A stretch of DNA of 20,507 nucleotides from a virus. The notes below the pieces were generated by a model, which made no database searches, had not been told where the DNA came from, and worked only from the letters and a program-made list of their open reading frames with translations. A program made the translations under genes and the position numbers. Location: the IMG/VR virus record IMGVR_UViG_3300044547_000234, positions 1 through 20,507 of that record; one strand, given 5' to 3'. Shown piece by piece: positions 2,021-17,444 of this stretch. Within the stretch, counting starts at the first letter, position 1. Every line of letters starts with the position of its first letter.

Positions 2021-2542
2021 ATGAGTACCGATATTTTTAGAAAATATATAGATATTATAAACGAGAATACAGTTGATATTAGTCAAGTTGCAAGTCAATT
2101 AAAATTTTTACCTACCCGTAAACAACCAAAACAATATAAATTTGTTAAAGATGGAGTTCCTGGTAAAATGCCAGCAATGACTTATACTGTTTCAGCACAA
2201 GAACAACCTGTTGTTACTATTACTAGCGATGGTAAAGAAACACAGAATGTTGCGTTACCAAACGATATTATTATGTCTGGTCCTAGTAGAGAAAATTATG
2301 TAGTTAAGGGTGCTAAATTTCCTAAACTATACGATGGTACTATGGGTGGTGTAGTTATTCCGGAACAAGGTCCTCGGTTAGTAGCGTTATACACAGGTCA
2401 ACAACCTATTACTTTTACTGCTCCTTGGGGAGAAAGTATGATAATGAAACCGGGTGATTACTTAGTTAAAGACGGGGATGCTGGTTATTATCGTGTAGCA
2501 AAAGTTGAATACGAACAGACTTATAATCCTCCTGGAAAATAA
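2021..2542 (+). CDS. Hypothetical protein with capsid-targeting-like N-terminus, 173 aa
   Basis: AAGGAA at 2009-2014 lies 6 bases before the ATG. The first 15 residues form an amphipathic segment ending I-I-N-E, then N16. This matches the (I/L)-x-E rule of T4-type prohead proteases and the layout of T4 internal-protein capsid-targeting peptides. The rest is a soluble beta-rich domain with a C-terminal signature TAPWGESMIMKPGDYLVKDG followed by YYRVAKVEYEQTY, reminiscent of a small barrel or cupin-like fold; I do not know its function. The next gene starts one base after its stop. The N-terminal processing is inference. Confidence 0.7.
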   Translation: MSTDIFRKYIDIINENTVDISQVASQLKFLPTRKQPKQYKFVKDGVPGKMPAMTYTVSAQEQPVVTITSDGKETQNVALPNDIIMSGPSRENYVVKGAKFPKLYDGTMGGVVIPEQGPRLVALYTGQQPITFTAPWGESMIMKPGDYLVKDGDAGYYRVAKVEYEQTYNPPGK

Positions 2543-2543
2543 A

Positions 2544-3671
2544 ATGAGAAATATTGTCATTATGCCAGGAGGCTTTCATCCGTTTCATGCAGGACATGCC
2601 GCACTATATAAGAGTGCTATAGCAGCCTTTAATAATGCTGATACGTATGTAGCCGCCACTAATGATACAAAAACAAGACCATTTCCTTTTGCCATTAAAG
2701 AGAAACTAGCAAAGCTTGCAGGCGTAGCTGACAAACACTTTGTTCAAGTTAAAAGTCCCTTTCAACCTAGAGAAATAACCGATCAATATAATCCCGAAGA
2801 AGATGTGTTAATCTTTGTTCGTAGTGAGAAGGATCGTAATGAAAGTCCTAAACCAGGTGGTACAAAGAAAGATGGTACGCCTGCATATTTTCAGCCATGG
2901 ACAGGTAAGAATGTACAACCATTTGGTAAACAAGCATATATTGCTTACTTACCTACAGTAGAGTTTGGTCCCGGCATTACAAGTGCAACAGAAATACGTA
3001 ATGCATGGCCTACATTGAATGATAAGCGTAAAACAGCAATGGTTATGAGTTTATACCCTGTTACACAAAAGAACCCTAAACTAGCCGCTAATGTTGTTAA
3101 AATGTTGGATATGAGTATGGGTAATGAATTGTCAGAAGGATCATTAAATGAATTTGCCCCACCGAGTGACGACAGAGGTGGCGGCGAGAATGATAGAAAT
3201 CGTAGAATAAGAAAACTATTAGAAATTGCTATACAAGTAGCAAAACAAAAAAATGTCTATGAATTGGGCATGATACATGCTATGAATATGATAGCAGGTG
3301 ATGAGTTTTTTAATACAGCAGTTGAAGGTATATTATCAGATATAACAGATAAAGAATATATGTTTGTGCTACAGAGTGCCTATAAAACAGTAAAACAAGG
3401 TTTGGCGGAAGGCGAAGAAATTGCTGAAGGACCTTTTGTTCAACGTCTTGGGCGCCCTAATAAAGTTAATATCTATGTAAGACATACTACAGGTAAACCC
3501 TCTTTACTTGTTGCAACTGATATCCCTTATTCAATATACGACAAGTTTATAAAGAAGGCTATACAAAAATATCCACAGTTTAAACAAACAGATTTCTCAT
3601 TTAAATCTGTTGATAAGGTTATGAAAGAAATTAAGGTTACCGAAAGCGTGGATTATTTAGAAGAAAAATAA
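2544..3671 (+). CDS. HxGH nucleotidyltransferase fused to two accessory modules, 375 aa
   Basis: Residues 1 to about 190 form a cytidylyl/adenylyltransferase-like fold: GGFHPFHAGH (9-18) holds the HxGH nucleotide motif, and ITSATEIR near 145-152 resembles the second ISSTxxR motif. Enzymes of this superfamily transfer AMP or CMP (NMN adenylyltransferase, phosphopantetheine adenylyltransferase, glycerol-phosphate cytidylyltransferase); the substrate cannot be read here. A linker follows with ELSEG and SLNEF (E198, E203), then a helical module, a second linker with GLAEG and EIAEG (E289, E295), and a basic module to the C-terminus. These linkers match the phi-x-E-G pattern of neighbouring proteins. 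The ATG at 2544 places the motif properly at the N-terminus; an upstream TTG would overlap the previous gene. Confidence 0.8.
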   Translation: MRNIVIMPGGFHPFHAGHAALYKSAIAAFNNADTYVAATNDTKTRPFPFAIKEKLAKLAGVADKHFVQVKSPFQPREITDQYNPEEDVLIFVRSEKDRNESPKPGGTKKDGTPAYFQPWTGKNVQPFGKQAYIAYLPTVEFGPGITSATEIRNAWPTLNDKRKTAMVMSLYPVTQKNPKLAANVVKMLDMSMGNELSEGSLNEFAPPSDDRGGGENDRNRRIRKLLEIAIQVAKQKNVYELGMIHAMNMIAGDEFFNTAVEGILSDITDKEYMFVLQSAYKTVKQGLAEGEEIAEGPFVQRLGRPNKVNIYVRHTTGKPSLLVATDIPYSIYDKFIKKAIQKYPQFKQTDFSFKSVDKVMKEIKVTESVDYLEEK

Positions 3672-6410: not shown

Positions 6411-6422
6411 GATAAATACTCT
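6411..6422 (+). promoter_or_regulatory. Late-promoter-like motif GATAAATACTCT
   Basis: The motif is identical over 12 bases to the one at 1427-1438. The TAAATA core (6413-6418) ends 4 bases before the ATG at 6423, leaving no room for a ribosome binding site. Confidence 0.65.
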
Positions 6423-8399
6423 ATGGACTTAAAAGAATTACATTCATTCAAAATGTCAGATGCGGTGACATTTCACGATAACCTCAATAGTAAATTATTT
6501 CGTGGGCAACATCTACAACCTGAAGTAGAACTACAATTAAAAACTATAGCACAAGACTTCCTGCAGGAAATGGGTATACATGATTTGGATGTACGTGATA
6601 TCACCGTTTCTGGAAGTAATGCAGCCTATAGCTATACAGACCATAGCGATTTAGATTTACATATCTTAGTCAATATGAAAGATTTACCGGATGATGACGT
6701 ATACCGTGAATTCTTCAAAGCTAAAAAAGATTTATACAATGATTCACATGATATAACTATCAATGGAATTCCAGTAGAATTATATATACAGGATGCGTCA
6801 GAACCTGTAACTAGCTTAGGTGAATATAGTGTGAAAGATAAAAAATGGTTGCGTTTGCCAACTAAGCGTAGAGCTAACTTTGATCAAACAGCTACTAAAG
6901 CAAAATATATAAAACTATTGGATATTATTGATACAGCATTACATTCTGATAATATGGGTAAAGTTAATAAAGTATTGAAGAAGATTACGCAATATCGTCA
7001 AGCTGGATTAGATAAAGGTGGTGAGTTTGGTCCTGAAAATCTAGCATATAAAGCATTACGTAGCAGGGGCTATATTACAAAACTATATGATTTACGTGAT
7101 AGATTACATAGCAAACATTTAAGTTTGAATGGTATGTATTCTAATGTAAATGAAGCTGTTACTGATAATTATCTATATCACGCTACAATGCCTGCAGGCA
7201 TAATGCGTATACTGCGTACAGGTATAATTAAAGCAACTGATCGCCCACAACCATCTACTAAATCAAAAACACAATACCCTACAATTAGTACAACTAGGTC
7301 AAAACAATATGCAGAATCAAACGATTTTGTAGATTTCTTAAACTTAACTAAAGATGGCAATTCAGTTATATTAGTATTTGACCGTACTACCGTTGCTAAT
7401 CATTACAAAATGTTTAGTACAAGTCAAGGTACACAAACTGTAGGTGACGAATATGAAGAAGTAATTGTTGCCCCTAAAGGATCAATGCCAATCAAAGGAA
7501 CATTAAAGGGATTCTATTTCAACCCTAGACGCACAGAAGAAATAGAAGGATATAAAGATATACCTTGGTTCAACGAGTTATTGACCAGTCCATATTATAT
7601 AGGACCAAAACAAGGTGTGGCGGAAGGCTTGGATGAAGCAGTGGGTGGCAATTATTTGTATCACGCTACAAGTGCGAGTGGTCTTAAAGGAATGCTATCG
7701 TCTGGTAGTATTCGATCAGCAACTGGTCCACAGTCAGCAACCTCGGCTCAGACCAAACTGCCTACAGTAAGCGTGACTAGAGATTGGGGATATGCTAGTG
7801 GATCAAATGCATCCAAACAAATGGCCGAAATTGGCAGAGATGCAATACTAGTGTTGGATCGCAATACAATTGAAAGTAATTTTAAGACCTTAGGTACAAG
7901 TCAAAGCACTAACATTAAAGGGTTGTCATTCAATCCATACCTTAAGAAAAATGGCGAAGCACGGTCACAGAACACAGATCCAATGGCAAGAGCAAATGCA
8001 AAGGCCAAAATGAAATATGCTGAACCTACTGCCAAAGCAGGTGGAGAATTTGAAGAAGCAGTAGTTGTCCCAAAAGGTGCATTGCCTTTAAAAGTAACAA
8101 TGGTTGGATTTTGGATTAATCCTAAAAGCGAACTGACAAAAGATCCTGTCATTATGAATGATCCTCGTAGATTGGATATGGTAAGACCTAATCAATTTGT
8201 AAAAGCAAAACAAAATCAAGATGTGGCGGAAGCATCAGGTTATATCCCTAGTGAAAAACAGAAAAATGACCCTCGTTTTAGTACAGCACTAACAGTAGAT
8301 ATTAAGCCCGACAGTATCAAAAAGAACGCAAAAGCATTCTATTGGAATACTAGTAGAGCAGGTATTCCTCCAACAGCAAAGCCATCAGGCAAAATCTAA
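6423..8399 (+). CDS. Nucleotidyltransferase plus tandem ADP-ribosyltransferase-like domains, 658 aa
   Basis: Residues 1-240 are a polymerase-beta-type nucleotidyltransferase domain: GSNAAYSYTDHSDLDLHI with the metal pair D76 and D78. Two copies of an ART-like domain follow (about 245-401 and 402-603). Each opens with NYLYHAT, has a T-(I/V)-S-x-T-R strand, an ILV(F/L)DR strand, an (Y/F)-E-E turn before VVxPKG-type residues, and ends GFxxNP. The H/S-T/E-E arrangement resembles the ADP-ribosyltransferase fold, but the exact class is inference. Junctions carry VNEA (E244), GVAEG (E401), LDEA (E405) and VAEA (E603), matching a prohead-protease-like rule. A 55-residue tail ends the protein. T4 Alt is a packaged ART, which makes an injected role plausible. 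No Shine-Dalgarno precedes the ATG. Confidence 0.75.
   Translation: MDLKELHSFKMSDAVTFHDNLNSKLFRGQHLQPEVELQLKTIAQDFLQEMGIHDLDVRDITVSGSNAAYSYTDHSDLDLHILVNMKDLPDDDVYREFFKAKKDLYNDSHDITINGIPVELYIQDASEPVTSLGEYSVKDKKWLRLPTKRRANFDQTATKAKYIKLLDIIDTALHSDNMGKVNKVLKKITQYRQAGLDKGGEFGPENLAYKALRSRGYITKLYDLRDRLHSKHLSLNGMYSNVNEAVTDNYLYHATMPAGIMRILRTGIIKATDRPQPSTKSKTQYPTISTTRSKQYAESNDFVDFLNLTKDGNSVILVFDRTTVANHYKMFSTSQGTQTVGDEYEEVIVAPKGSMPIKGTLKGFYFNPRRTEEIEGYKDIPWFNELLTSPYYIGPKQGVAEGLDEAVGGNYLYHATSASGLKGMLSSGSIRSATGPQSATSAQTKLPTVSVTRDWGYASGSNASKQMAEIGRDAILVLDRNTIESNFKTLGTSQSTNIKGLSFNPYLKKNGEARSQNTDPMARANAKAKMKYAEPTAKAGGEFEEAVVVPKGALPLKVTMVGFWINPKSELTKDPVIMNDPRRLDMVRPNQFVKAKQNQDVAEASGYIPSEKQKNDPRFSTALTVDIKPDSIKKNAKAFYWNTSRAGIPPTAKPSGKI
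7155..7625 (+). other. ART-like module A within the 658-aa protein
   Basis: Residues 245-401, bounded by VNE at 244 and VAE at 401. By hand count the stretch 7201-7320 has 42 G+C in 120 (35%), like its surroundings. Key residues are H253 in YHAT, the STTRS strand and the EYEEV turn near 343-347. Confidence 0.55.
7626..8231 (+). other. ART-like module B within the 658-aa protein
   Basis: Residues 402-603, between VAE (401) and VAE (603). It shares YHAT (H414), the SVTR strand and the FEEAVVVPKG turn with module A, but has an Ala/Lys-rich insertion of about 45 residues before the E-E turn. By hand count 7681-7800 has 58 G+C in 120 (48%), clearly above module A, so the pair may not be a simple local duplication. 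Confidence 0.55.
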
Positions 8400-8435: not shown

Positions 8436-8454
8436 AATAGTATGGGAATCCGTT

Positions 8455-9534
8455 ATGAAAATCAAACAAATCACTGAAAATACAACATCAGGCTCAATCG
8501 CTACAGTAGAAACCGCATTAGGTGGCACACAAAGTAGAGGAAATCCTAGTATATATGGTGGAAAGAAAGTAGGCTCACTATTCAAGGGTAAAAAGACTAA
8601 AGCCCCATATGCTAATAGCATTAATGAAGGTGCTGAACTTAGTGAAGCACAACTAGAAGAAGATGATGTTATTGTCGTTCCTGGACAAGGCCGTGGTCGT
8701 AAAAATGGATTTATTCCACATGGTAAAAGTCGTATAGACCACGAAGTTGAGATGGCACGTAGTGATTTATTCAGTGCCGCAAAGAATGCTCAACAAGTTT
8801 ATTCAATGATTAAAGATGTTAGTGAAGAAGAAGGACTTGATGGTTGGGTACAAGAAAAGATTATTAAAGCTAATGACTATCTAAACACAATACGTGAATA
8901 TTTAGAAGGTAAACAAGTTCAGGGTGTAAATGAAGGCGTTGCTGACATGCATAGTAATGAATTACTAAACACTGTTAGAGGTGCAATTAGAAAAGCAATT
9001 AAAGAAACAGGTGACCAATCATTGTCAAAAATCTTTGTTTGTTTACGAGATGCTAGACCAGCAAGTGAAGCATTAAAAAATATCACAAGTCCAAATTCTC
9101 TAGCAGAGGTAGATAATGCTTTGCAAGAAGTAGGTATTGACTTTGATGACCTCCTTGATTTTATCAATAAACAAGCAGAAAAATACGGTCGACAAGGTGT
9201 ATCAGAAGGCTCACAACGAGGTGATACACTAGTTACTGACTCATTAAAAATAATGCGTGGTCCAGAAGTAACTGATGCTATCAAGGCATTAAAGACCGTT
9301 CTAGGAGATAGAGAATACAATAGCCGTCGTGGTTTTTATAATTTCTATGTTAAACAAATAGTTGATAATTATGGTCAGCAAGGTATGAATGAAGGAGCTA
9401 AAGTGGACCGCATGGTTAAACATGTAGCACAATCAGAAAAAAAATTAGGCAAGAGTAAAGACAAAGCAGAAAACATTGCGTGGGCTACAGCTAACAAACG
9501 TGGCATGTTAAATAACAAGAATAAGAAAGCGTAA
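8455..9534 (+). CDS. Modular protein with capsid-targeting-like N-terminus and QGVxEG linkers, 359 aa
   Basis: The ATG at 8455 gives MKIKQITEN, resembling T4 internal-protein capsid-targeting peptides (phi-x-E); a TTG further upstream would run through the promoter motif. The protein is a string of modules separated by INEG (E58), LSEA (E64), GVNEG (E160), GVSEG (E251) and GMNEG (E313). They are a Gly/Lys-rich low-complexity stretch; a helical module of about 90 residues (HEVEMARSDLF to YLNTIREYLEG); a second helical module; a third with Asp-rich helices; and a basic helical tail with KVDRMVKHV and AENIAWATANKRG. Of these I recognise only a type seen repeatedly in aquatic T4-like phages, without known function. 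The downstream gene starts 2 bases after its stop. Confidence 0.72.
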   Translation: MKIKQITENTTSGSIATVETALGGTQSRGNPSIYGGKKVGSLFKGKKTKAPYANSINEGAELSEAQLEEDDVIVVPGQGRGRKNGFIPHGKSRIDHEVEMARSDLFSAAKNAQQVYSMIKDVSEEEGLDGWVQEKIIKANDYLNTIREYLEGKQVQGVNEGVADMHSNELLNTVRGAIRKAIKETGDQSLSKIFVCLRDARPASEALKNITSPNSLAEVDNALQEVGIDFDDLLDFINKQAEKYGRQGVSEGSQRGDTLVTDSLKIMRGPEVTDAIKALKTVLGDREYNSRRGFYNFYVKQIVDNYGQQGMNEGAKVDRMVKHVAQSEKKLGKSKDKAENIAWATANKRGMLNNKNKKA

Positions 9535-9535
9535 T

Positions 9536-12500
9536 ATGAGCAATATTCTTAAAGGTATATTAAACGAAGTCAGTCCGCATAACTATGACAGTGATTGGGA
9601 TTATCAGGATGCTCTAGCACGTAGTGGCAAATCACGTTCTAGTTATCGTTCACAAGAAGATGACACATCTGATGCTGATATTGAATACTCTAAAAAGATG
9701 TATCAACTAAGCCAAAAACAAAAACGTGATGCGGACCATGATAGATTAGCAACTGGTACAAATGAAGGTATAGATGATCCATGGGGAGATCAAGGTAACT
9801 TTGCAGGTGATAAGCCAGTTAATCTTGGTGGTGTATCTATTAAGAATATACAGACTGGTGACACAGTTAAGTATCTTGGACAACCATCAAAAGTAGTTGC
9901 TATGAGTAAGGATCGTAAACATTCTCGCATTACAATTACTAAGGGTATAGGTACTGTTACACAAGATGTATTAACAAGTGATTTACAGCAACTAGGTCAA
10001 GGTAAAACAATAGAAGAAGATAACACCAATAGAATGAAAATGGATGATTATTACAATTTAGCTGACGCTATTCAGGAAAAGCTTAGACAAGCAATTAAGA
10101 TGGGTAATAACGAACTTGTAGATAAATTATCCAAAGAACGTGCTGACTTAGATGCACGTGTTAAAAAATATGGCTTGATGCCAGAATCACAACTAGATGA
10201 AATCTCTAATGAGAAGTTAAGTCAATACAAGACAGCGGCGGCATTAGATGCAGGTAAAGCTGATAAGGAAGGTGACTACAAACGTGGTGATAAACGTTTC
10301 AGTGGTATTGTTAAAGCAACTAAGAAACAGTTTGCAAACGATACAAAGAAGTCTGGTATCAGTCAAGGTATAAATGAATTTTCCCCTATTAAACCACCTA
10401 CTGCCGGGGCATTTGGTGGCAATAAAGATTATGGTCAGCCCACCAGTTCACGTTACTTGGGCAACAACAAGTTTGTGGTAGGAACTACCAACAATTATGT
10501 GTTGACCGCAACTGTGGACAAATGGGGCCTGGAATGGGACGAGGACGATGAAATATGGTTCTTGGACAGTCCTGGTGCTGTGTACATTGCTGATGCTACT
10601 GAAGGTGAAATAGAATTACCTGCTCCACAAGAACAAAGAAATCAAATACACGATTTGGTAAGTGATTATCTTAACGCTAGAAATTCTGCCGACTTACAAA
10701 AGGTAGCCGCATATTTTGGTCATAGTCCTGATGGTGAAATGGCAACAAATGAAGCTGTTTCAGGAAATAGATTTAACAGTAAACAAGAAGTTATTAATCA
10801 TTTTGTTAAAAACGGTAAAAGTGCGGCAGCAGGCGCAGCGGCATGGGAACGTGGTTATAGAGGTTCATCTAAAAAACCAATAGAGTTAAAAAAACCACCA
10901 CAAAGAAGTTACCATGATGATTTGGATGATAAACGCTATTCATCAACATTTGAAAACTTAGGTGATCAATTAAAATCTAAATCATTAGAAGCATTAACAC
11001 AACTTAAACAACAAATTGAACAAAAACGTATGGATGATTTAGCTCAATGGGAACAAGATTTTAGAAATAATGTTGCTAGTAAGATGAGAAGTCAACCGAT
11101 ACGTTCACCAGAAGCAACACCAGTTGCACAACCTGGTGAAAAGCATTCTATATTAAAAGCTAGATTATCACAATTAAATAATGCTATACAAAAGCAACAA
11201 CTATTAGATAAGTTAATTGATAGAATAGAACGTAAAGGTTTGTTAACTCCTGCAATGCAGAATGATACCGATACTAGTATGCACGTTAAGTATGGTGCAA
11301 AAGATAACTATCAATCATTGAATAAAAAATTAGACAATGCTATTTCAATGTTACAGGATAGATTGTATATACGTAAAAAGTCAGGTTTGAAAGAAGGACA
11401 TGATGAGCGTGATGAATATGATAATCCTAGACAAGGTAGAGATTATGGCAAGGGAAATCTATTTGTAGATCCAGGTTCAAATGAATTTGAAAAAAATGTA
11501 CCAGTCAGTGTACCCGGTGGACCACGTGGCGCACCAAAAAATCTTAAAGGTATTTCAAAAGCATTACCCGCTGATGCATTTGGTCGTACAACAGGTAAAA
11601 TACCTGCAGGTAAACCCGGCAAAGTTCACAGTAAGATGAGCAATACAGATGAAGTTGATGAAGGTTGGAGTCAAAAATATAAATCTAGTATCAACTGTAG
11701 TCATCCTAAAGGCTTTAGTCAAAAAGCTCATTGTGCTGGTAAGAAAAAACACAATGAAAGTATTGACAATGTTATGGAGATGACATGTCCTGATTGTGGT
11801 ATGTGTGAAACTCATGTAGACCATACTAATTTAGAAGAAGCATGTTGGAAAGGTTATCACAAAGAAGGTATGAAAACCATGTTTGGAAAACAATATCCAG
11901 ACTGTAGAAAGAATAAAAAGAAAACTAACGAAGAACAACTAGATGAAAAATGTTGGGACACACATAAACAAGTAGGTATGAAAAATAAAGGTGGACGAAT
12001 GGTCCCTAAATGTGTGCCTAAAGAAAGTATAGCGGAAGGCATGCCGTCTGACAATGACATGGGTTCTACTACTGGTGGTGCTAAAATGACATTAGGTCAA
12101 TGGAAACAAATGTGGATGAAGAAAATGCCAAACGCTGACTTTGCCGCAATGTTTAGATCACCTCCTAATATGCGAGGTAGTGCTATAGCATACTTTGATG
12201 GTTGGGTAAACAACCCTGATGCTAGATGGGATCCGCAACAAGGTGTAACGGAAGAAAAATGTCCACATTGTAATGGTCCAATGTTCAGTGAAATGATAAT
12301 GAACGAAAAGAAAGATGCTTGTTACTATAAAGTAAAGAGCCGTTACAAAGTGTGGCCAAGTGCCTATGCTAGTGGTGCATTAGTTAAGTGTCGTAATAAA
12401 GGTGCAAGCAACTGGGGCAATGGTGGAAAGAAAAATGAAAGCTCTATACTAGAAGGTATTGAACAAGCGGACGAAAGTTTGCACGATTGGTTCAATAAAG

Positions 12501-12715
12501 AAAAATGGGTTCGCATGGATACTAAAGGGAAGATTAAAGGTCCATGTGCTAGAGAACCAGGAGAAGGTAAACCAAAATGCTTGCCACAAAGTAAAGCACA
12601 TAGTCTAGGTAAAAAGGGTCGTGCTAGTGCCGCTCAACGTAAGCGTAGAGAAGATCCTAATCCAGAGCGTAGTGGTAAAGCTATCAATGTTGATACAAAG
12701 AAAAATAAAGGCTAA
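9536..12715 (+). CDS. Giant modular, Cys-rich mosaic protein, 1059 aa
   Basis: It begins MSNILKGILNEV, again a short segment ending phi-x-E (E11). At least ten more phi-x-E sites fall at apparent module borders: TNEG (E77), LDEI (E222), GINEF (E281), TNEA (E406), LKEG (E620), VDEG (E709), LDEK (E804), IAEG (E834), GVTEE (E906) and ILEG (E973). Visible modules include helical stretches, a small acidic domain (about 282-406) with unusual base composition, a Cys module (C751, C754, C757), two CW-x18-C units (770-826), a CPHC start at 909, a YKVWPSAYASGALVKCR module near 935-950 resembling the DUF5872 type, and a basic C-terminal domain (about 978-1059). No enzyme motif is clear. It could be a polyprotein of small injected proteins or a long virion component. 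Confidence 0.72.
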   Translation: MSNILKGILNEVSPHNYDSDWDYQDALARSGKSRSSYRSQEDDTSDADIEYSKKMYQLSQKQKRDADHDRLATGTNEGIDDPWGDQGNFAGDKPVNLGGVSIKNIQTGDTVKYLGQPSKVVAMSKDRKHSRITITKGIGTVTQDVLTSDLQQLGQGKTIEEDNTNRMKMDDYYNLADAIQEKLRQAIKMGNNELVDKLSKERADLDARVKKYGLMPESQLDEISNEKLSQYKTAAALDAGKADKEGDYKRGDKRFSGIVKATKKQFANDTKKSGISQGINEFSPIKPPTAGAFGGNKDYGQPTSSRYLGNNKFVVGTTNNYVLTATVDKWGLEWDEDDEIWFLDSPGAVYIADATEGEIELPAPQEQRNQIHDLVSDYLNARNSADLQKVAAYFGHSPDGEMATNEAVSGNRFNSKQEVINHFVKNGKSAAAGAAAWERGYRGSSKKPIELKKPPQRSYHDDLDDKRYSSTFENLGDQLKSKSLEALTQLKQQIEQKRMDDLAQWEQDFRNNVASKMRSQPIRSPEATPVAQPGEKHSILKARLSQLNNAIQKQQLLDKLIDRIERKGLLTPAMQNDTDTSMHVKYGAKDNYQSLNKKLDNAISMLQDRLYIRKKSGLKEGHDERDEYDNPRQGRDYGKGNLFVDPGSNEFEKNVPVSVPGGPRGAPKNLKGISKALPADAFGRTTGKIPAGKPGKVHSKMSNTDEVDEGWSQKYKSSINCSHPKGFSQKAHCAGKKKHNESIDNVMEMTCPDCGMCETHVDHTNLEEACWKGYHKEGMKTMFGKQYPDCRKNKKKTNEEQLDEKCWDTHKQVGMKNKGGRMVPKCVPKESIAEGMPSDNDMGSTTGGAKMTLGQWKQMWMKKMPNADFAAMFRSPPNMRGSAIAYFDGWVNNPDARWDPQQGVTEEKCPHCNGPMFSEMIMNEKKDACYYKVKSRYKVWPSAYASGALVKCRNKGASNWGNGGKKNESSILEGIEQADESLHDWFNKEKWVRMDTKGKIKGPCAREPGEGKPKCLPQSKAHSLGKKGRASAAQRKRREDPNPERSGKAINVDTKKNKG
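10379..10753 (+). other. Base-composition-anomalous module in the 1059-aa protein
   Basis: This covers residues 282-406, from just after GINE to TNE. By hand count 10441-10560 has 56 G+C in 120 (47%), against 35 in 120 (29%) at 10861-10980. Codon choice also shifts toward C/G-ending codons (GAC, AAC, CTG, GTG). The protein segment is a small acidic domain with WGLEWDEDDEIWFLDSPG. This points to a separately acquired module. Confidence 0.6.
11840..12025 (+). repeat. Tandem CW-(H)-GMK-C modules
   Basis: Two units start with Cys-Trp (C770-W771 and C806-W807), contain a His-Lys pair (H775, H810) and GMK (778-780, 814-816), and end with Cys exactly 20 residues after the first (C790, C826). A phi-x-E-like site (LDEK) separates them. 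The spacing suggests a small metal- or disulfide-stabilised unit present twice. Confidence 0.65.
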
Positions 12716-12717
12716 TA

Positions 12718-13158
12718 ATGTTATCAGATAATTTAAAAGTACTATTAGCTAGTACACAAAGTTTTGCTATTAAAACACAAAACTTCCATTGGAATGTGGA
12801 GGGAAGTAACTTTCCACAATATCACGACTTCTTTAATACATTGTATGAAGATGTAAATGCTACTATTGATCCTATCGCTGAATATATTAGAATTCTAGGT
12901 CAATATACTCCTGGCAGTTTGTCACGTTATACTGAACTAAGTATTATACAAGACCAAACTAAAGTTCCAAGAGCAGAACTTATGTTTGTTGAGTTACTAC
13001 AAAATTGTGAAACAATGACAGAACTTGTTGTTGCTATGTTTGACGAAGCTACAAATGAACGTCAACAAGGTATTGCTAACTACATGGCTGAGTTACAAGA
13101 CTTATACGGCAAGAAAGCATGGTTCATTCGTTCTACATTAAAAAGAGAACGTGAGTAA
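12718..13158 (+). CDS. dps: Dps-family ferritin-like protein, 146 aa
   Basis: The four-helix-bundle signature NFHWNVEGSNF is present, and the inter-subunit ferroxidase residues are all in place: H24, H36, D51 and E55. Their spacing (12, 15 and 4 residues) is identical to that of H51, H63, D78 and E82 in E. coli Dps. Dps oligomers oxidise Fe(II) with peroxide, store iron and can bind and protect DNA. The length is short for Dps (E. coli 167 aa) because it lacks the basic N-terminal tail. It starts 2 bases after the modular-protein gene and overlaps the next start (TAATG). It could protect phage DNA from oxidative damage or be packaged; it has no obvious capsid-targeting N-terminus. Confidence 0.9.
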   Translation: MLSDNLKVLLASTQSFAIKTQNFHWNVEGSNFPQYHDFFNTLYEDVNATIDPIAEYIRILGQYTPGSLSRYTELSIIQDQTKVPRAELMFVELLQNCETMTELVVAMFDEATNERQQGIANYMAELQDLYGKKAWFIRSTLKRERE

Positions 13159-13406
13159 TGAGAGCAACAGAATTTATCACTGAGCAAGCTAATCCTAAAA
13201 TAGATTTGACACCAAACTATCCTAACTACGAAGTATTAGTAGGAGAGTTTATTGGCATGAGAAAGAATAGAGCAAGATTCTTAATTATAGCATCTGAACT
13301 TAAGCCAGGTGTACGTGAGACAGATAAGATATTTAGAGCAAAAACAACTAATACACCAATCAGTGTTGAGATTAGTAAAGTAAAAAATAGAACAGTAGTA
13401 GGATAA
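13158..13406 (+). CDS. Small basic protein with capsid-targeting-like N-terminus, 82 aa
   Basis: It begins MRATEFITEQ, closely similar to the start of the gene at 13947 (MRAIELYES) and to T4 internal-protein signals with a phi-x-E site (E9). The remainder is a compact module with NYEVLVGEFIGMRKNRARF and ends SVEISKVKNRTVVG, which looks like a small RNA-binding or OB-like beta domain. Function is unknown. Its start overlaps the Dps stop codon (TAATG), so it is coupled to Dps. Confidence 0.68.
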   Translation: MRATEFITEQANPKIDLTPNYPNYEVLVGEFIGMRKNRARFLIIASELKPGVRETDKIFRAKTTNTPISVEISKVKNRTVVG

Positions 13407-13408
13407 AC

Positions 13409-13849
13409 ATGAAAAAAATATTAATAGCAATAACACTAACATTAACAACTATGGTAGCATTTGCACAAAAACAAAAGCCAATGAATATATATGATTTTCC
13501 AATCACTAGAGTTATTGACGGAGATACTGTAGCATTTCAAGCAACATTCTTACCCCCACCATTAAAACAAGAACTAAGTATTCGTGTATTTGGTGTTGAC
13601 ACACCTGAAAAAGGTCATAGAGCCCAATGTCCAAGTGAAGACCAACGTGGTCAGGCTGCTTCAGCTTTCACTAAAAATGCTATAGCTAAAGCACAGAAAC
13701 GTCAAGTAGCTATTGCTGATTGGGATAAGTATGGTGGACGTGTATTGGGTGACATATTACTTGATGGACAAAGTTTAAGAATGATGTTAATACAGAATGG
13801 ATTTGCAAGAGAATACTACGGAGAAGCTAAAACTTCTTGGTGTAACTAA
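13409..13849 (+). CDS. Secreted staphylococcal-type nuclease (SNase/thermonuclease family), 146 aa
   Basis: Residues 1-19 form a typical signal peptide (MKKILIAITLTLTTMVAFA) with an A-F-A cleavage site before Q20. The mature part has the SNase active site: RVIDGDTV near the start, RVFGVDTPEKG with R59, D64 and E67, and DKYGGRVLGD with R111, equivalent to R35, D40, E43 and R87 of the S. aureus enzyme. SNases cut DNA and RNA with Ca2+. A C-terminal Cys is present. It likely acts in the periplasm or outside the cell, where it might degrade host or competitor nucleic acid. It starts 2 bases after the previous stop. Confidence 0.9.
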   Translation: MKKILIAITLTLTTMVAFAQKQKPMNIYDFPITRVIDGDTVAFQATFLPPPLKQELSIRVFGVDTPEKGHRAQCPSEDQRGQAASAFTKNAIAKAQKRQVAIADWDKYGGRVLGDILLDGQSLRMMLIQNGFAREYYGEAKTSWCN

Positions 13850-13925: not shown

Positions 13926-13933
13926 TAAGTGAG

Positions 13934-13945
13934 CATAAATACTAA
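13934..13945 (+). promoter_or_regulatory. Late-promoter-like motif CATAAATACTAA
   Basis: The TAAATA core (13936-13941) ends 5 bases before the ATG at 13947, with no Shine-Dalgarno between. It resembles the close-set copies before the genes at 4752 and 6423. Confidence 0.6.
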
Positions 13946-13946
13946 T

Positions 13947-14900
13947 ATGAGAGCAATAGAACTATACGAATCAGCCGCAACTGACCTAGCTAAGAAACTT
14001 CCTAGCTTAGAAAAGCACGACTATAATACCATTGATAAACTAATGAAAAAGATAGCAAAGAAACATCGTATAACCGGTGATGCATTGCATGATTTGTTTG
14101 TTAGAAAATATCATAAGACTCCGGACAGTTGGATTAAAGATAAACTAGATGAGGTTGGAGGACGACATTACAACCCGGATGGTACAACATATCGCGGATC
14201 CTATAATAAAATGCCAACATTAAATGATCCTAACGATATTTATAACAGAGCAGAACGAGTGCCATATAAAGATCCAGCTGGTGAAGATCCTGAAATAGAT
14301 GATAGTATTAAACAAATTATTCAAAATGGCTTAAACAGATTAACCGATGACCAACGAAAAGTATTAATTTTAAGATTTTGGTATGATATGACATTACAAC
14401 AGATTGGTGATAAGTTTGACTTGTCTAGAAATAGAATAAGAGAAATTGAAGCTAAAGGATTAAGACGATTGCGAGATTCCGCTAGACATAATGGATATGA
14501 TCCTGAGTTATTAAAACCCTACATTACTGAATCTGAACAAGAAGATTTAAATAACAATCCTATTGTAAAGAAGTTTCTTGCTTGGACAAGTAAGAAGTTA
14601 AATTTAGAAACTACTCCAAAGATAGAGTTTAGTTATGATAGTGATGAAGCGCAAGAAGGTCATCATACTGGTAGACACAATCCAGAGACGGGTGAAGTAT
14701 GGGTGTATTGTGCTAATAGAAATTTAGTAGATATATTACGCACTGTTTTCCATGAATTAACACATGTGCGTCAGGGTGAATTAAATATGATTAAACCGGG
14801 CGATAGTTATCCCGGTAGTCCAATAGAAGCAGAAGCGGATGTGATGGCTGGCAAGTATATTAAGATATTTGGCAAAGCACATCCAGAAATCTTTCAATAA
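13947..14900 (+). CDS. Sigma-region-4/zinc-metallopeptidase fusion with capsid-targeting-like N-terminus, 317 aa
   Basis: The ATG at 13947 gives MRAIELYES, matching the 82-aa protein's start; a GTG at 13929 would translate the promoter motif. Three regions are separated by phi-x-E sites LYES (E8), LDEV (E69) and ITES (E195). Residues 9-69 are a helical module. Residues 70-195 contain a sigma70 region 4 helix-turn-helix (LTDDQRKVLILRFWYDM, then TLQQIGDKFDLSRNRIREIE), which in sigma factors contacts -35 DNA and the RNA polymerase flap. Residues 196-317 are a zincin with HELTH and a downstream E in PIEAEADVMAGKY, as in ImmA/IrrE-like metallopeptidases. If cut at these sites it yields a DNA-binding piece and a protease piece. 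Functions are by family; processing is inference. Confidence 0.8.
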   Translation: MRAIELYESAATDLAKKLPSLEKHDYNTIDKLMKKIAKKHRITGDALHDLFVRKYHKTPDSWIKDKLDEVGGRHYNPDGTTYRGSYNKMPTLNDPNDIYNRAERVPYKDPAGEDPEIDDSIKQIIQNGLNRLTDDQRKVLILRFWYDMTLQQIGDKFDLSRNRIREIEAKGLRRLRDSARHNGYDPELLKPYITESEQEDLNNNPIVKKFLAWTSKKLNLETTPKIEFSYDSDEAQEGHHTGRHNPETGEVWVYCANRNLVDILRTVFHELTHVRQGELNMIKPGDSYPGSPIEAEADVMAGKYIKIFGKAHPEIFQ

Positions 14901-14910
14901 AGAGTAACAT

Positions 14911-15840
14911 ATGTCAATAACAATAACAGGTGGGATAACAATAAATGGTGGTGGATTTACTATAGTTGCACCACCACCGGTAGAGAAAAAAGCTATATTT
15001 GGTTATGGATTTACCAGTGCTGCGGTATCATTAACCAACCTAGTATCAAACACAGGGGTAGTTAGTAATGATGTTACAGGTGTTGGCACTGGTAGACAAC
15101 TACTAGCTGCCGCAGGTTACGGTACAGATAAAGCTATATTTGGATATGGATACAGTGTGGCAAATTCATCAATAACCAATTTAGTATCAAACACTGGAGT
15201 AGTTGCTACAGATACTACAGGTGTTGGTACTGGTAGACAAGGACTAGCGGCAGCCGGTTATGGAACAGATAAGGCTATTTTTGGTTACGGTAATGGTGGT
15301 TCAGTCACAGCAATAACCAATCTAGTATCAAACACAGGCGTTGTTGCCGGTGATACCACAGGTGTTGGTACTGGTAGAAACAATCTTGCGGCAACTGGAT
15401 ATGGCACTGATAAAGCTATATTTGGATATGGAATGGGTGGTGGTTCTACTGTAGTATCAATGACTAACTTAGTAAGTAATACAGGGGTGGTTGCTGGTGA
15501 CACAACAGGTGTTGGTACTGCTAGATTTAATCCCGCAGCTGCCGGGTATGGCACTGATAAAGCTATATTTGGATATGGAATGAATAGTGGTTATAATGTA
15601 GTATCAATGACCAATTTAGTATCAAACACTGGAGTAGTTGCTACTGATACATCAGGTGTTGGTACTGCTAGACGATTATTAGCAGCCGCAGGATATGGAC
15701 TAGATAAAGCTATATTTGGATATGGTTCTGCACCAGATACATCAATAACTAATCTTGTGTCAAATACAGGTGTAGTTGCTACAGATACATCAGGTGTTGG
15801 TACTGCTAGACAAGGATTAGCGGCTGCAAGTTACGGGTAA
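14911..15840 (+). CDS. Six-repeat beta-propeller-like protein, 309 aa (copy 1)
   Basis: A short lead (MSITITGGITINGGGF) is followed by six repeats of about 47 residues with the frame AIFGYG, a variable 6-10 residue loop, then TNLVSNTGVVATDTTGVGT and LAAAGYG. Periodicity, Gly/Thr richness and repeat count suggest a six-bladed beta-propeller, as in Kelch/RCC1-like phage proteins that sit on fibres or capsids. Binding specificity would lie in the variable loops after AIFGYG. No signal peptide is seen. AAGAG at 14900-14904 serves as a modest ribosome binding site. A paralogue of equal length follows after 22 bases. Confidence 0.78.
   Translation: MSITITGGITINGGGFTIVAPPPVEKKAIFGYGFTSAAVSLTNLVSNTGVVSNDVTGVGTGRQLLAAAGYGTDKAIFGYGYSVANSSITNLVSNTGVVATDTTGVGTGRQGLAAAGYGTDKAIFGYGNGGSVTAITNLVSNTGVVAGDTTGVGTGRNNLAATGYGTDKAIFGYGMGGGSTVVSMTNLVSNTGVVAGDTTGVGTARFNPAAAGYGTDKAIFGYGMNSGYNVVSMTNLVSNTGVVATDTSGVGTARRLLAAAGYGLDKAIFGYGSAPDTSITNLVSNTGVVATDTSGVGTARQGLAAASYG
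14989..15837 (+). repeat. Six tandem units of 141-147 bp in propeller gene 1
   Basis: The Ala codon of AIFGYG recurs at 14992, 15133, 15274, 15415, 15562 and 15709, giving intervals of 141, 141, 141, 147 and 147 bases; the last unit is shortened. Loops vary while flanks stay nearly constant in protein but differ at many silent sites. Confidence 0.9.
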
Positions 15841-15862: not shown

Positions 15863-16792
15863 ATGTCAATAACAATAACAGGTGGAATAACATTAAATGG
15901 TGGGGGATTTACTATAGTTGCACCACCGGCAGGGGTAAAGGCTATATTTGGATATGGATCGGCAACCGGGGGAGTTAAACAATCACTGACTAATCTAGTA
16001 TCAAACACAGGTGTTGTTGCTACTGATACTACAGGTGTTGGTACTGATAGGAGTTATCTTGCAGCCGCGGGTTATGGAACTGATAAAGCAATATTTGGTT
16101 ACGGTCTTGCTACTGCGAGTGTGTCAATGACCAATAAAGTAAGTAATACAGGTGTAGTTGCTACTGATACAACAGGAGTAGGTACTGCTAGAATAGACCT
16201 TGCGGCAGCTGGTTATGGTACAGATAAAGCTATTTTTGGATATGGCCAAACCGATGGCGGAACGAAGCTATCAATGACCAACTTAGTAAGTAACACCGGT
16301 GTCGTTGCCACAGATACTTCAGGCGTCGGCACTGCTAGACGAGCACTTGCGGCCGCTGGCTATGGTACTGATAAAGCTATATTTGGTTACGGTAGTGATG
16401 GTACTAGAGTATCAATGACCAACAAAGTATCAAACACCGGCGCTGTTGCTAGTGATACCACTGGTGTAGGTACTGCAAGAACTGTTCTTGCAGCCGCAAC
16501 TTACGGTACAGATAAAGCTATTTTTGGTTACGGTCTTACTACTGTTAATGTGTCAATGACTAATCTAGTATCAAACACTGGTGTTGTTGCTACTGATACA
16601 ACTGGTGTTGGCACTGCTAGATATTTTCTAGCAGCCGCCGGATACGGAACTGATACAGCTATATTTGGTTATGGATCTACTGGATCAATGACATCAATGA
16701 CCAACCTAGTATCGAACACTGGAGTAGTTGCTACAGACACTACTGGAGTAGGTACTGCTAGGCAGGGATTAGCAGCCGCAAGTTACGGTTAA
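15863..16792 (+). CDS. Six-repeat beta-propeller-like protein, 309 aa (copy 2)
   Basis: This paralogue of the preceding gene has the same lead (MSITITGGITLNGGGF) and six repeats with the AIFGYG frame. The loops differ from copy 1, for example ATGGVKQSL, TDGGTKLSM and TTVNVSM. Five of six AIFGYG units are preceded by Lys, and the last has TDTAIFGYG instead. The same predicted six-bladed propeller applies. Having two adjacent copies with different loops suggests two receptor-binding or surface specificities, or a reservoir for recombination. Equal length and near-identical ends support a local duplication. Confidence 0.78.
   Translation: MSITITGGITLNGGGFTIVAPPAGVKAIFGYGSATGGVKQSLTNLVSNTGVVATDTTGVGTDRSYLAAAGYGTDKAIFGYGLATASVSMTNKVSNTGVVATDTTGVGTARIDLAAAGYGTDKAIFGYGQTDGGTKLSMTNLVSNTGVVATDTSGVGTARRALAAAGYGTDKAIFGYGSDGTRVSMTNKVSNTGAVASDTTGVGTARTVLAAATYGTDKAIFGYGLTTVNVSMTNLVSNTGVVATDTTGVGTARYFLAAAGYGTDTAIFGYGSTGSMTSMTNLVSNTGVVATDTTGVGTARQGLAAASYG
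15938..16789 (+). repeat. Six tandem units of 141-147 bp in propeller gene 2
   Basis: The Ala codon of AIFGYG recurs at 15941, 16088, 16229, 16376, 16517 and 16658, with intervals of 147, 141, 147, 141 and 141 bases. Arrangement and consensus are as in the first array. Confidence 0.9.
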
Positions 16793-16847: not shown

Positions 16848-17444
16848 ATGATTAAGTTAACAGTTCCATTACCCAAAAGTATCACAATCGCATGTAGCGG
16901 TGGTGTAGATAGCATGGCAGTTGTTGACTTTCTAAGTCGTAAACACGATATCACTATCGCCCATTTTAATCATAGAACACAAAACGGTGAAAAAGCCGCA
17001 GAGTTTGTTTCTAGGTACTGTGGTGAACATAGTATTGTTATGATGTACGGCTCACCTCGCAGTCAAAAAAATAGTAAAGAAAGTCAAGAAGAATACTGGC
17101 GTAGAGAACGCTATGAATTTTTAAATGATCTTGGCCCAGTCATTACTTGTCATCATTTAGATGATTGTGTTGAAACATATATTTGGTCAAGTCTTCATGG
17201 TACACCCAAAGTTATTCCATTAACTCGCAACAATGTAATTAGACCATTTCTAACTACTAGAAAACAAGACTTCATCTATTGGTGTGAAAGTCACAATGTA
17301 CCCTGGATAGAAGATGAATCAAATAAGAATTCCAGATATACCCGAAACTATATTCGCAATGAACTAATGCCACATGCATTACATGTCAATCCAGGATTAC
17401 CTAAATTGGTCAAAAAGATTGTAGAAGGTAAACAAAATACTTGA
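16848..17444 (+). CDS. tilS: TilS-like tRNA(Ile)-lysidine synthase, catalytic domain only, 198 aa
   Basis: The PP-loop ATPase motif SGGVDSM is at residues 17-23, HHLDD near 101-105, and the family signature ESNKNSRYTRNYIRNELMP near 157-175. TilS attaches lysine to C34 of tRNA-Ile(CAU), using ATP, so that it reads AUA codons. Bacterial TilS is usually over 400 residues; this version keeps the N-terminal catalytic domain and lacks most of the tRNA-recognition C-terminal part. Other PP-loop enzymes (TtcA, MesJ-like) are possible, but the ESN...YxRNxIR signature favours TilS. In an AT-rich phage rich in AUA codons a lysidine enzyme would aid translation. It starts without a Shine-Dalgarno. Confidence 0.83.
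   Translation: MIKLTVPLPKSITIACSGGVDSMAVVDFLSRKHDITIAHFNHRTQNGEKAAEFVSRYCGEHSIVMMYGSPRSQKNSKESQEEYWRRERYEFLNDLGPVITCHHLDDCVETYIWSSLHGTPKVIPLTRNNVIRPFLTTRKQDFIYWCESHNVPWIEDESNKNSRYTRNYIRNELMPHALHVNPGLPKLVKKIVEGKQNT

Follow-up and report, generated by a model that had tools for sequence, protein, structure and literature searches.

The open reading frame (ORF) at positions 6423 to 8399 of a viral DNA record encodes a nucleotidyltransferase (NTase) followed by two similar domains of the YHAT type, which raises the question of whether these enzymes act as one polypeptide or as separate proteins. The window, that is, the whole stretch analyzed, is a 20.5-kb virus record that is itself a fragment, and T4-superfamily jumbo phages have the DNA polymerases most similar to its own (Sinorhizobium phage Phosso, 48%; Agrobacterium phage Atu_ph07, 47%). 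The reading that we favor, with a probability of roughly 0.7, is that the ORF encodes a late, head-packaged polyprotein, which the prohead protease dices so that its enzymes are injected as separate proteins.

Domain organization and the YHAT modules

The ORF lies on the + strand, starts with ATG, is intact and encodes 658 aa, and neither strand has another long ORF opposing it; copies 100% identical to it were found in three further contigs. Four parts were distinguished, all on the + strand: a Pol-beta-type NTase (residues 1-244, positions 6423 to 7154), YHAT module 1 (residues 245-401, 7155 to 7625), YHAT module 2 (residues 406-603, 7638 to 8231) and a conserved 55-aa C-terminal module, ASGYIPSEKQKNDPRFSTALTVDIKPDS...GKI (C-module, residues 604-658, 8232 to 8396), which is present in every full-length NTase orthologue. 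The first-pass annotation had read an NTase followed by two YHAT domains with conserved E-E turns, and this order was borne out: the two modules are true paralogues (53 of 173 residues identical, 31%, E 1e-28), each with an E-[YF]-E-E turn. Its bounds need correction, since it took residues 402-603 as one domain where a GLDE tetrapeptide (402-405) sits between the modules, and its domain list lacked the last 55 residues, which form a separate conserved module.

In the NTase the hG[GS] motif, the DxD motif and the third carboxylate are all present (GSN 64-66, D76/D78 and E119). The domain matched the profile phrog_36119 (E 6e-45), while its Pfam matches were weak and under the cut-off.

The YHAT modules carry H253, S289/T291/R292 and E343-x-E345-E346 (module 1) and H414, T452/R453 and E542-x-E544-E545 (module 2, which has an insert of about 40 aa). 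Among 13 diverse YHAT homologues N5-T11 (NYLYHAT), T47/R48 and E99/E101/E102 are invariant. The three-part active site of ADP-ribosyltransferases (ARTs), H or R, S/Y and E, would correspond to the invariant YHAT, TR and E-x-E-E, the catalytic roles being assigned by analogy. An AF2 model of module 1 was built from an alignment of the 13 homologues (pLDDT 77, pTM 0.73); a full-length model of the ORF product (pLDDT 41.8) was left out. Foldseek comparison of the module 1 model with the PDB gave four matches at a probability of at least 0.6, three solved ARTs and one DUF952 protein: 1s5b (0.99), 2o0q (DUF952, 0.89), 8baq (DarT1 with NAD+, 0.66) and 4z9c (0.60), the best E-value being just 0.019. 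The DUF952 domain is ART-like as well. Among the BFVD viral models ten matches passed 1e-3, and a phage DarT (E 4e-3) and a rifampin ART (E 0.18) ranked lower. The PDB matches of residues 245-401 at that probability are ART or ART-like, in agreement with the fold first proposed for them.

Sequence searches of the YHAT modules against Pfam, PHROGs and the PDB by phmmer and hmmsearch gave no match above the cut-off (Tox-ART-HYD1, E 0.09), so the assignment of the fold comes from the model; with moderate confidence we consider it likely that the modules have an ART fold. A search of 84,980 prokaryote genomes found no relative of the ART, and named phages gave matches at chance level only (E 3-10), among them one in Rhizobium phage RHph_I1_18 that covers 94%. 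The nearest relatives of module 2 lie within other polyproteins (L095 and L097; L numbers denote loci of related viruses).

Kinship with T4 Alt, which had been suggested, was not sustained. Alt resembles the YHAT modules in that it is a packaged ART of a T4-type phage, processed by gp21 at both ends. However, Alt is an R-S-E ART, whereas all members of the YHAT family have H in the first motif (H253 and H414 here) and lack the arginine of Alt, ModA and ModB; the modules are therefore not of the Alt type, nor did they match Alt-type families by sequence. According to Iyer et al. (2017, PMC5512222), R-S-E ARTs such as Alt are absent from genuine polyvalent proteins.

An ART-like fold could also serve without ADP-ribosylation, as an RNA 2'-phosphotransferase-like enzyme, a NAD glycohydrolase or a binding-only domain, any of which is compatible with packaging. 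Weak matches to an RNA 2'-phosphotransferase phrog (E 0.12) and to DUF952, with no family above the curated cut-off, leave room for this possibility, which we nevertheless rate as the less probable one, since the invariance of H, T-R and E-x-E in 13 diverse members is what an enzyme would show and the fold matches include DarT1 with NAD+. We infer that the YHAT modules use NAD+ chemistry.

Module junctions and a probable cargo slot

The T4 prohead protease gp21 cleaves after L/I-X-E (PMC9026906). Both YHAT modules do open with the common junction E-A-V-x-x-N-Y-L-Y-H-A-T noticed in the first-pass annotation, and the prohead-protease rule at module joints explains it: the shared E-A-V is an [LIVM]-x-E/ site of gp21 specificity (a slash marks the predicted cut), and such sites bound modules throughout the family. 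In the ORF product, predicted sites are NVNE/A after E244 (7143 to 7157), the double site QGVAE/GLDE/A after E401 and E405 (7611 to 7640) and DVAE/A after E603 (8220 to 8234), all on the + strand.

To score joints independently of the motif, recurrent module breakpoints were taken from BLAST alone, giving 76 in 31 polyproteins. Of these, 68 lay within 7 aa of [LIVMFW]xE (21.4 expected, maximum 34 in 500 trials) and 43 within 7 aa of [LIVM]xE[AGS] (4.9 expected, maximum 11 in 500 trials). The control motifs [KRQN]xE (10 against 8.7), [LIVM]xD and [LIVM]xK showed no enrichment near breakpoints; [LIVM]xQ was enriched too (27 against 8.6 expected), probably because of the QGVAE linker. The boundary of the C-module reads [LIVM]xE/ASGYIPS in 28 of 28 orthologues, and its 19 distinct left contexts without exception have a hydrophobic residue at P3 and E at P1, with N, A, E, S, G, W, Q or T at P2. 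Binomial values for these contexts (8e-12 and 3e-24) are too strong, as some contexts are related, but the pattern is plain. Hydrophobic-x-E likewise precedes the ART module in all 14 distinct left contexts from public contigs. The site at the NTase end is looser: [LIV]xE is found there in 25 of 28 orthologues, P1' is often D, E, M or I, and three lack a site at the usual place. Taken singly, the protein has 4 sites against 1.5 expected (P 0.07); the site statistics rest on the whole family, whose members are partly dependent on each other.

The N-terminus of the ORF product (MDLKELHSF) has no clear capsid-targeting sequence. In the stand-alone ART L099, on the other hand, the start is MRAEEFMVE/AVGGNYLYHAT, the first nine residues resembling the T4 capsid-targeting sequence, and the NTase homologues of Cr30 (MRKFSQLLE/D) and Molly (MNLKTLVE/T) also have starts that look like one.

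The 20.5-kb window carries no gp21, but it and the other fragments are too short to show whether the protease is present in their genomes, and the protease and capsid genes considered come from relatives. Eleven large relatives were searched for the S77 protease, and gp21 (PF03420, E 1e-28 to 1e-29) was found together with gp23 in five of them. In the three inspected, gp22 is packed with [LIVM]xE[AGS], and gp23 starts MSKVLLE/GRW...ALLE/GLKG...LLAE/SSAG. The gp22 of a 348-kb relative has 15 [LIVM]xE[AGS] sites against 2.5 expected, and the excess in that genome falls on gp22, gp21, the cargo cluster and a further two long proteins; outside the top 45, the remaining 370 ORFs showed none (148 sites against 173 expected).

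These observations bear on whether the product is cut at all. An uncut polyvalent effector, packaged and working as one multidomain polypeptide with the [LIV]xE linkers as flexible joints, would have precedent in the single-polypeptide polyvalent proteins with NTase, ART, GNAT and peptidase domains described in PMC5512222, and cleavage of the ORF product is a prediction from sequence. Flexible joints need no hydrophobic-x-E, yet the 19 distinct C-module contexts obey the P3/P1 rule; moreover, the same E/AVGG junction closes the capsid-targeting-like leader of L099, and the cognate scaffold and capsid proteins carry the same motif. An uncut product is thus improbable in our view. Of the compound effector first envisaged, the presence of several transferase-type enzymes in one ORF stands, whereas its action as a single polypeptide is unsupported, a prohead-protease site being predicted at each boundary between modules.

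The linker is also repeated at the DNA level. The sequence CAAGGTGTGGCGGAA occurs at window positions 7611 (in the double site), 3396, 8920 and 12239 and in relatives, and is nearly identical between unrelated joints; the identical 15-mer was present in 43 of 93 distinct QG[VML]xE contexts, for which 29 different codings were counted in all. This repetition suggests that the linker may serve recombination as well, as a seed for module swapping. That it is nothing but such a seed, its glutamate motif having no proteolytic meaning, is the least probable of the alternatives: the linker has 29 codings, and many junctions other than QGVAE are still hydrophobic-x-E (NVNE, NIDE, LTE, ISE, MSE and SLNE). 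The recombination and proteolytic roles may both hold at once.

Orthologues in viral contigs keep the NTase (1-244) and the C-module and differ in the middle. The 28 orthologues with the same two ends have 21 architectures, in which the middle ranges from 0 to about 1,100 aa, from an empty slot in L014 (304 aa in total) to about 1,100 aa in L042. Underlying these architectures are 25 module clusters, an approximate count as the cutting-up splits a few domains. Named modules in the slot are a deaminase (E 1e-11), a GIY-YIG nuclease, a second Pol-beta NTase, GNATs and ART, with weak matches to PARP and KptA; L011, another polyprotein, has a 5'-nucleotidase-like domain. The same ART modules recur in the unrelated polyproteins L008, L010, L011, L095, L097, L098 and L102. 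The enzyme middle is swapped freely among related viruses, and, as in polyvalent proteins, a single phage ORF joins several effector domains of unrelated kinds that are reshuffled from one relative to another.

Other ART-looking modules, with sequences unlike the YHAT family, were seen in the slots of L034, L048, L022, L042 and L105 (LYHATYKQ, FVYHVTP, YLWHGSR, FFRGEP and VLYHGTP). An embedded peptidase domain was not found in the ORF at 6423 to 8399, and a HEVQH-type module is present in some orthologues (L042 and L036). Named phages gave no match to the C-module. A toxin-antitoxin reading was dropped because there is no fixed partner gene and the NTase occurs without any ART in orthologues (L014).

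Late promoter motif, virion proteins and neighboring genes

A T4-type late promoter motif, (g)ATAAATAc, lies at positions 6412 to 6419 (+ strand), 11 nt 5' of the ATG, and is found at -11 in 15 of 26 orthologues. In the 348-kb relative, 69 of 415 ORFs have ATAAATA in the 60 nt that precede them, against 4.4 expected. The ten longest genes bearing it include tail sheath, baseplate, fiber-like, terminase and virion structural genes, and genes without it include those for DNA polymerase, a Clp-type protease, SbcC and NrdA. The exact T4 late box TATAAATA was not enriched in the window (1 match against 3.0 expected); the form of the late box in this phage group is ATAAATA with a variable first base. 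From these motif statistics we infer that the ORF is transcribed late. About 11 of the 26 orthologues (L031, L044, L040, L026, L041 and others) have no promoter motif; there a proline-rich, coding-like stretch abuts the ATG, as if the gene were coupled or fused to the one upstream.

The NTase is homologous to gp156 of cyanophage S-CREM2 (37% identity, E 2.5e-40), and S-CREM2 gp160 is a homologue of the neighboring polyprotein at 9536 to 12715. Published mass spectrometry of S-CREM2 virions (PMC10665884, Table 3) detected ORF156 with 6 unique peptides (15.2% coverage) and ORF160 with 7 (13.1%), and the cytidylyltransferase gp154 with 3; its authors warn that proteins of this kind may have been co-purified, and the accessible text does not mention cutting. 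The N-terminus of gp154, MKNFSSFLTE/AD, is targeting-like. Packaging of the ORF product, which had been proposed from the analogy with Alt, is supported by the late promoter motif, the protease sites, the capsid-targeting-like leader of L099 and the NTase homologue in S-CREM2 virions.

The gene could instead be a middle or early host-takeover gene, expressed in the infected cell and unpackaged. In cyanophages the NTase gene lies near DNA polymerase or late sigma genes, outside the structural operon, and the gene in the window is about 9 kb from that for DNA polymerase. This location is outweighed by the ATAAATA motif at -11, seen in the window and 15 of 26 orthologues, and by the finding of an NTase homologue among the S-CREM2 virion proteins, so that we regard an unpackaged product as quite unlikely.

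Two genes of similar kind follow on the + strand. The protein encoded at 8452 to 9534, with ATAAATA 27 nt upstream, starts MKIKQITE/N, has internal QGVNE/G, QGVSE/G and QGMNE/G and contains 6 sites against 1.6 in shuffles (P 0.003, counted on a longer TTG-initiated ORF from 8422). The second polyprotein of the same kind, of 1059 aa (9536 to 12715), has 6 sites against 2.3 (P 0.013), and the cyanophage homologues that share modules with it are encoded next to terminase genes.

Several further observations were made in this region. The linkers of these two neighbors read QGVNE/G, QGVSE/G, QGMNE/G and QGVTE/E, and modules of the second recur in 371 phage records, nearly all of cyanophages. A cytidylyltransferase-like protein (PF01467) at 2505 to 3671 has QGLAE/GEEIAE/G near its C-terminus. 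The protein at 13929 to 14900 starts MRAIELYE/SA and seems to be a fusion of a sigma-region-4-like helix-turn-helix with a zinc metallopeptidase motif (HELTH); a C-terminal module like its own ends the L095 polyprotein. An 82-aa protein at 13158 to 13406 has the capsid-targeting-like start MRATEFITE/QA, and several similar starts (MRATEFIIE, MRAKEFITE and MRAIEFVTE) occur in the 348-kb relative (G003). Tandem paralogous proteins of about 45-aa repeats (AIFGYG...TNLVSNTGVVATDTTGVGTARQ) are encoded at 14911 to 15840 and 15863 to 16792. By eye, the products of 12718 to 13158, 13409 to 13849 and 16848 to 17444, near the cargo cluster, are Dps/ferritin-like, secreted thermonuclease-like and TilS-like (PP-loop), respectively.

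A proposed head-packaged polyprotein and its relation to known systems

In the mechanism that we propose, the gene would be transcribed late and its product, from which the head-packaged enzymes of a T4-superfamily phage derive, would enter the prohead core. A gp21-type prohead protease would cut after E244, E401/E405 and E603, giving predicted products of 28.1 kDa (NTase), 17.7 and 21.3 kDa (ARTs), 0.4 kDa and 6.0 kDa (C-terminal peptide). The freed enzymes would exit with the DNA and modify putative host targets as infection begins: the NTase would transfer nucleotidyl groups, and the ARTs would carry out NAD+-dependent ADP-ribosylation. Between the NTase and the C-module would lie a cargo slot in which each phage holds its own enzyme modules, bounded by protease sites.

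The nearest concept is that of the polyvalent proteins of phages and conjugative elements, which their authors liken to viral polyproteins (Iyer et al. 2017, PMC5512222). Like these, the ORF product is large, multidomain and predicted to be injected, combines domains drawn from the same set (NTase, ART, GNAT, nuclease) and belongs to a fast-shuffling family. Release of polyvalent proteins is ascribed there to embedded peptidases, common but not universal, whereas the ORF has a predicted site for a trans-acting prohead protease at each joint; prohead-protease sites are not named in the accessible text of that paper. 'Polyvalent protein' and 'prohead protease' occurred together only in PMC5512222, the latter just in a reference title, in a search outside which most subscription papers and bioRxiv lie.

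The nearest mechanism is that of the T4 internal proteins IPI-IPIII, which share cleavage at L/I-X-E, packaging in the prohead core and hypervariable cargo (PMC9026906) and have a counter-host role (PMC12373910). They carry one cargo per gene with one N-terminal cut, whereas the ORF encodes several modules with a predicted cut between each. The head ejection proteins of the giant phages SPN3US and phiKZ are likewise cut by an S77 prohead protease, which follows an x-x-E rule and acts on many packaged proteins, but the known cuts remove propeptides, and the accessible part of the source (PMC10052503) describes no precursor that yields several enzymes. S-CREM2 gp156 is an NTase alone, with neither ART nor C-module, and is annotated as hypothetical (PMC10665884). 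The components are known separately, and what would be new is a polyvalent polyprotein whose processing falls to the prohead protease, acting in trans. That this constitutes a distinct form of delivery in T4-superfamily and jumbo phages, in which a cargo-slot gene encodes a true polyprotein diced in trans inside the prohead so that enzymes between [LIV]xE sites are packaged and released, seems to us somewhat better than an even bet.

If true, the proposal would unite the gp21-cut internal proteins of T4 with the polyvalent injected effectors under a single mechanism, one that would extend to the 1059-aa neighbor and to many cyanophage proteins annotated as hypothetical. Culturable cyanophages carry homologues and have published virion proteomes, making the proposal testable from existing spectra. 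Hydrophobic-x-E at domain boundaries would also be a simple rule by which packaged effectors could be picked out from the unnamed proteins of phages, and it points to ARTs, deaminases, acetyltransferases and nucleases that are likely active in the first minutes of infection.
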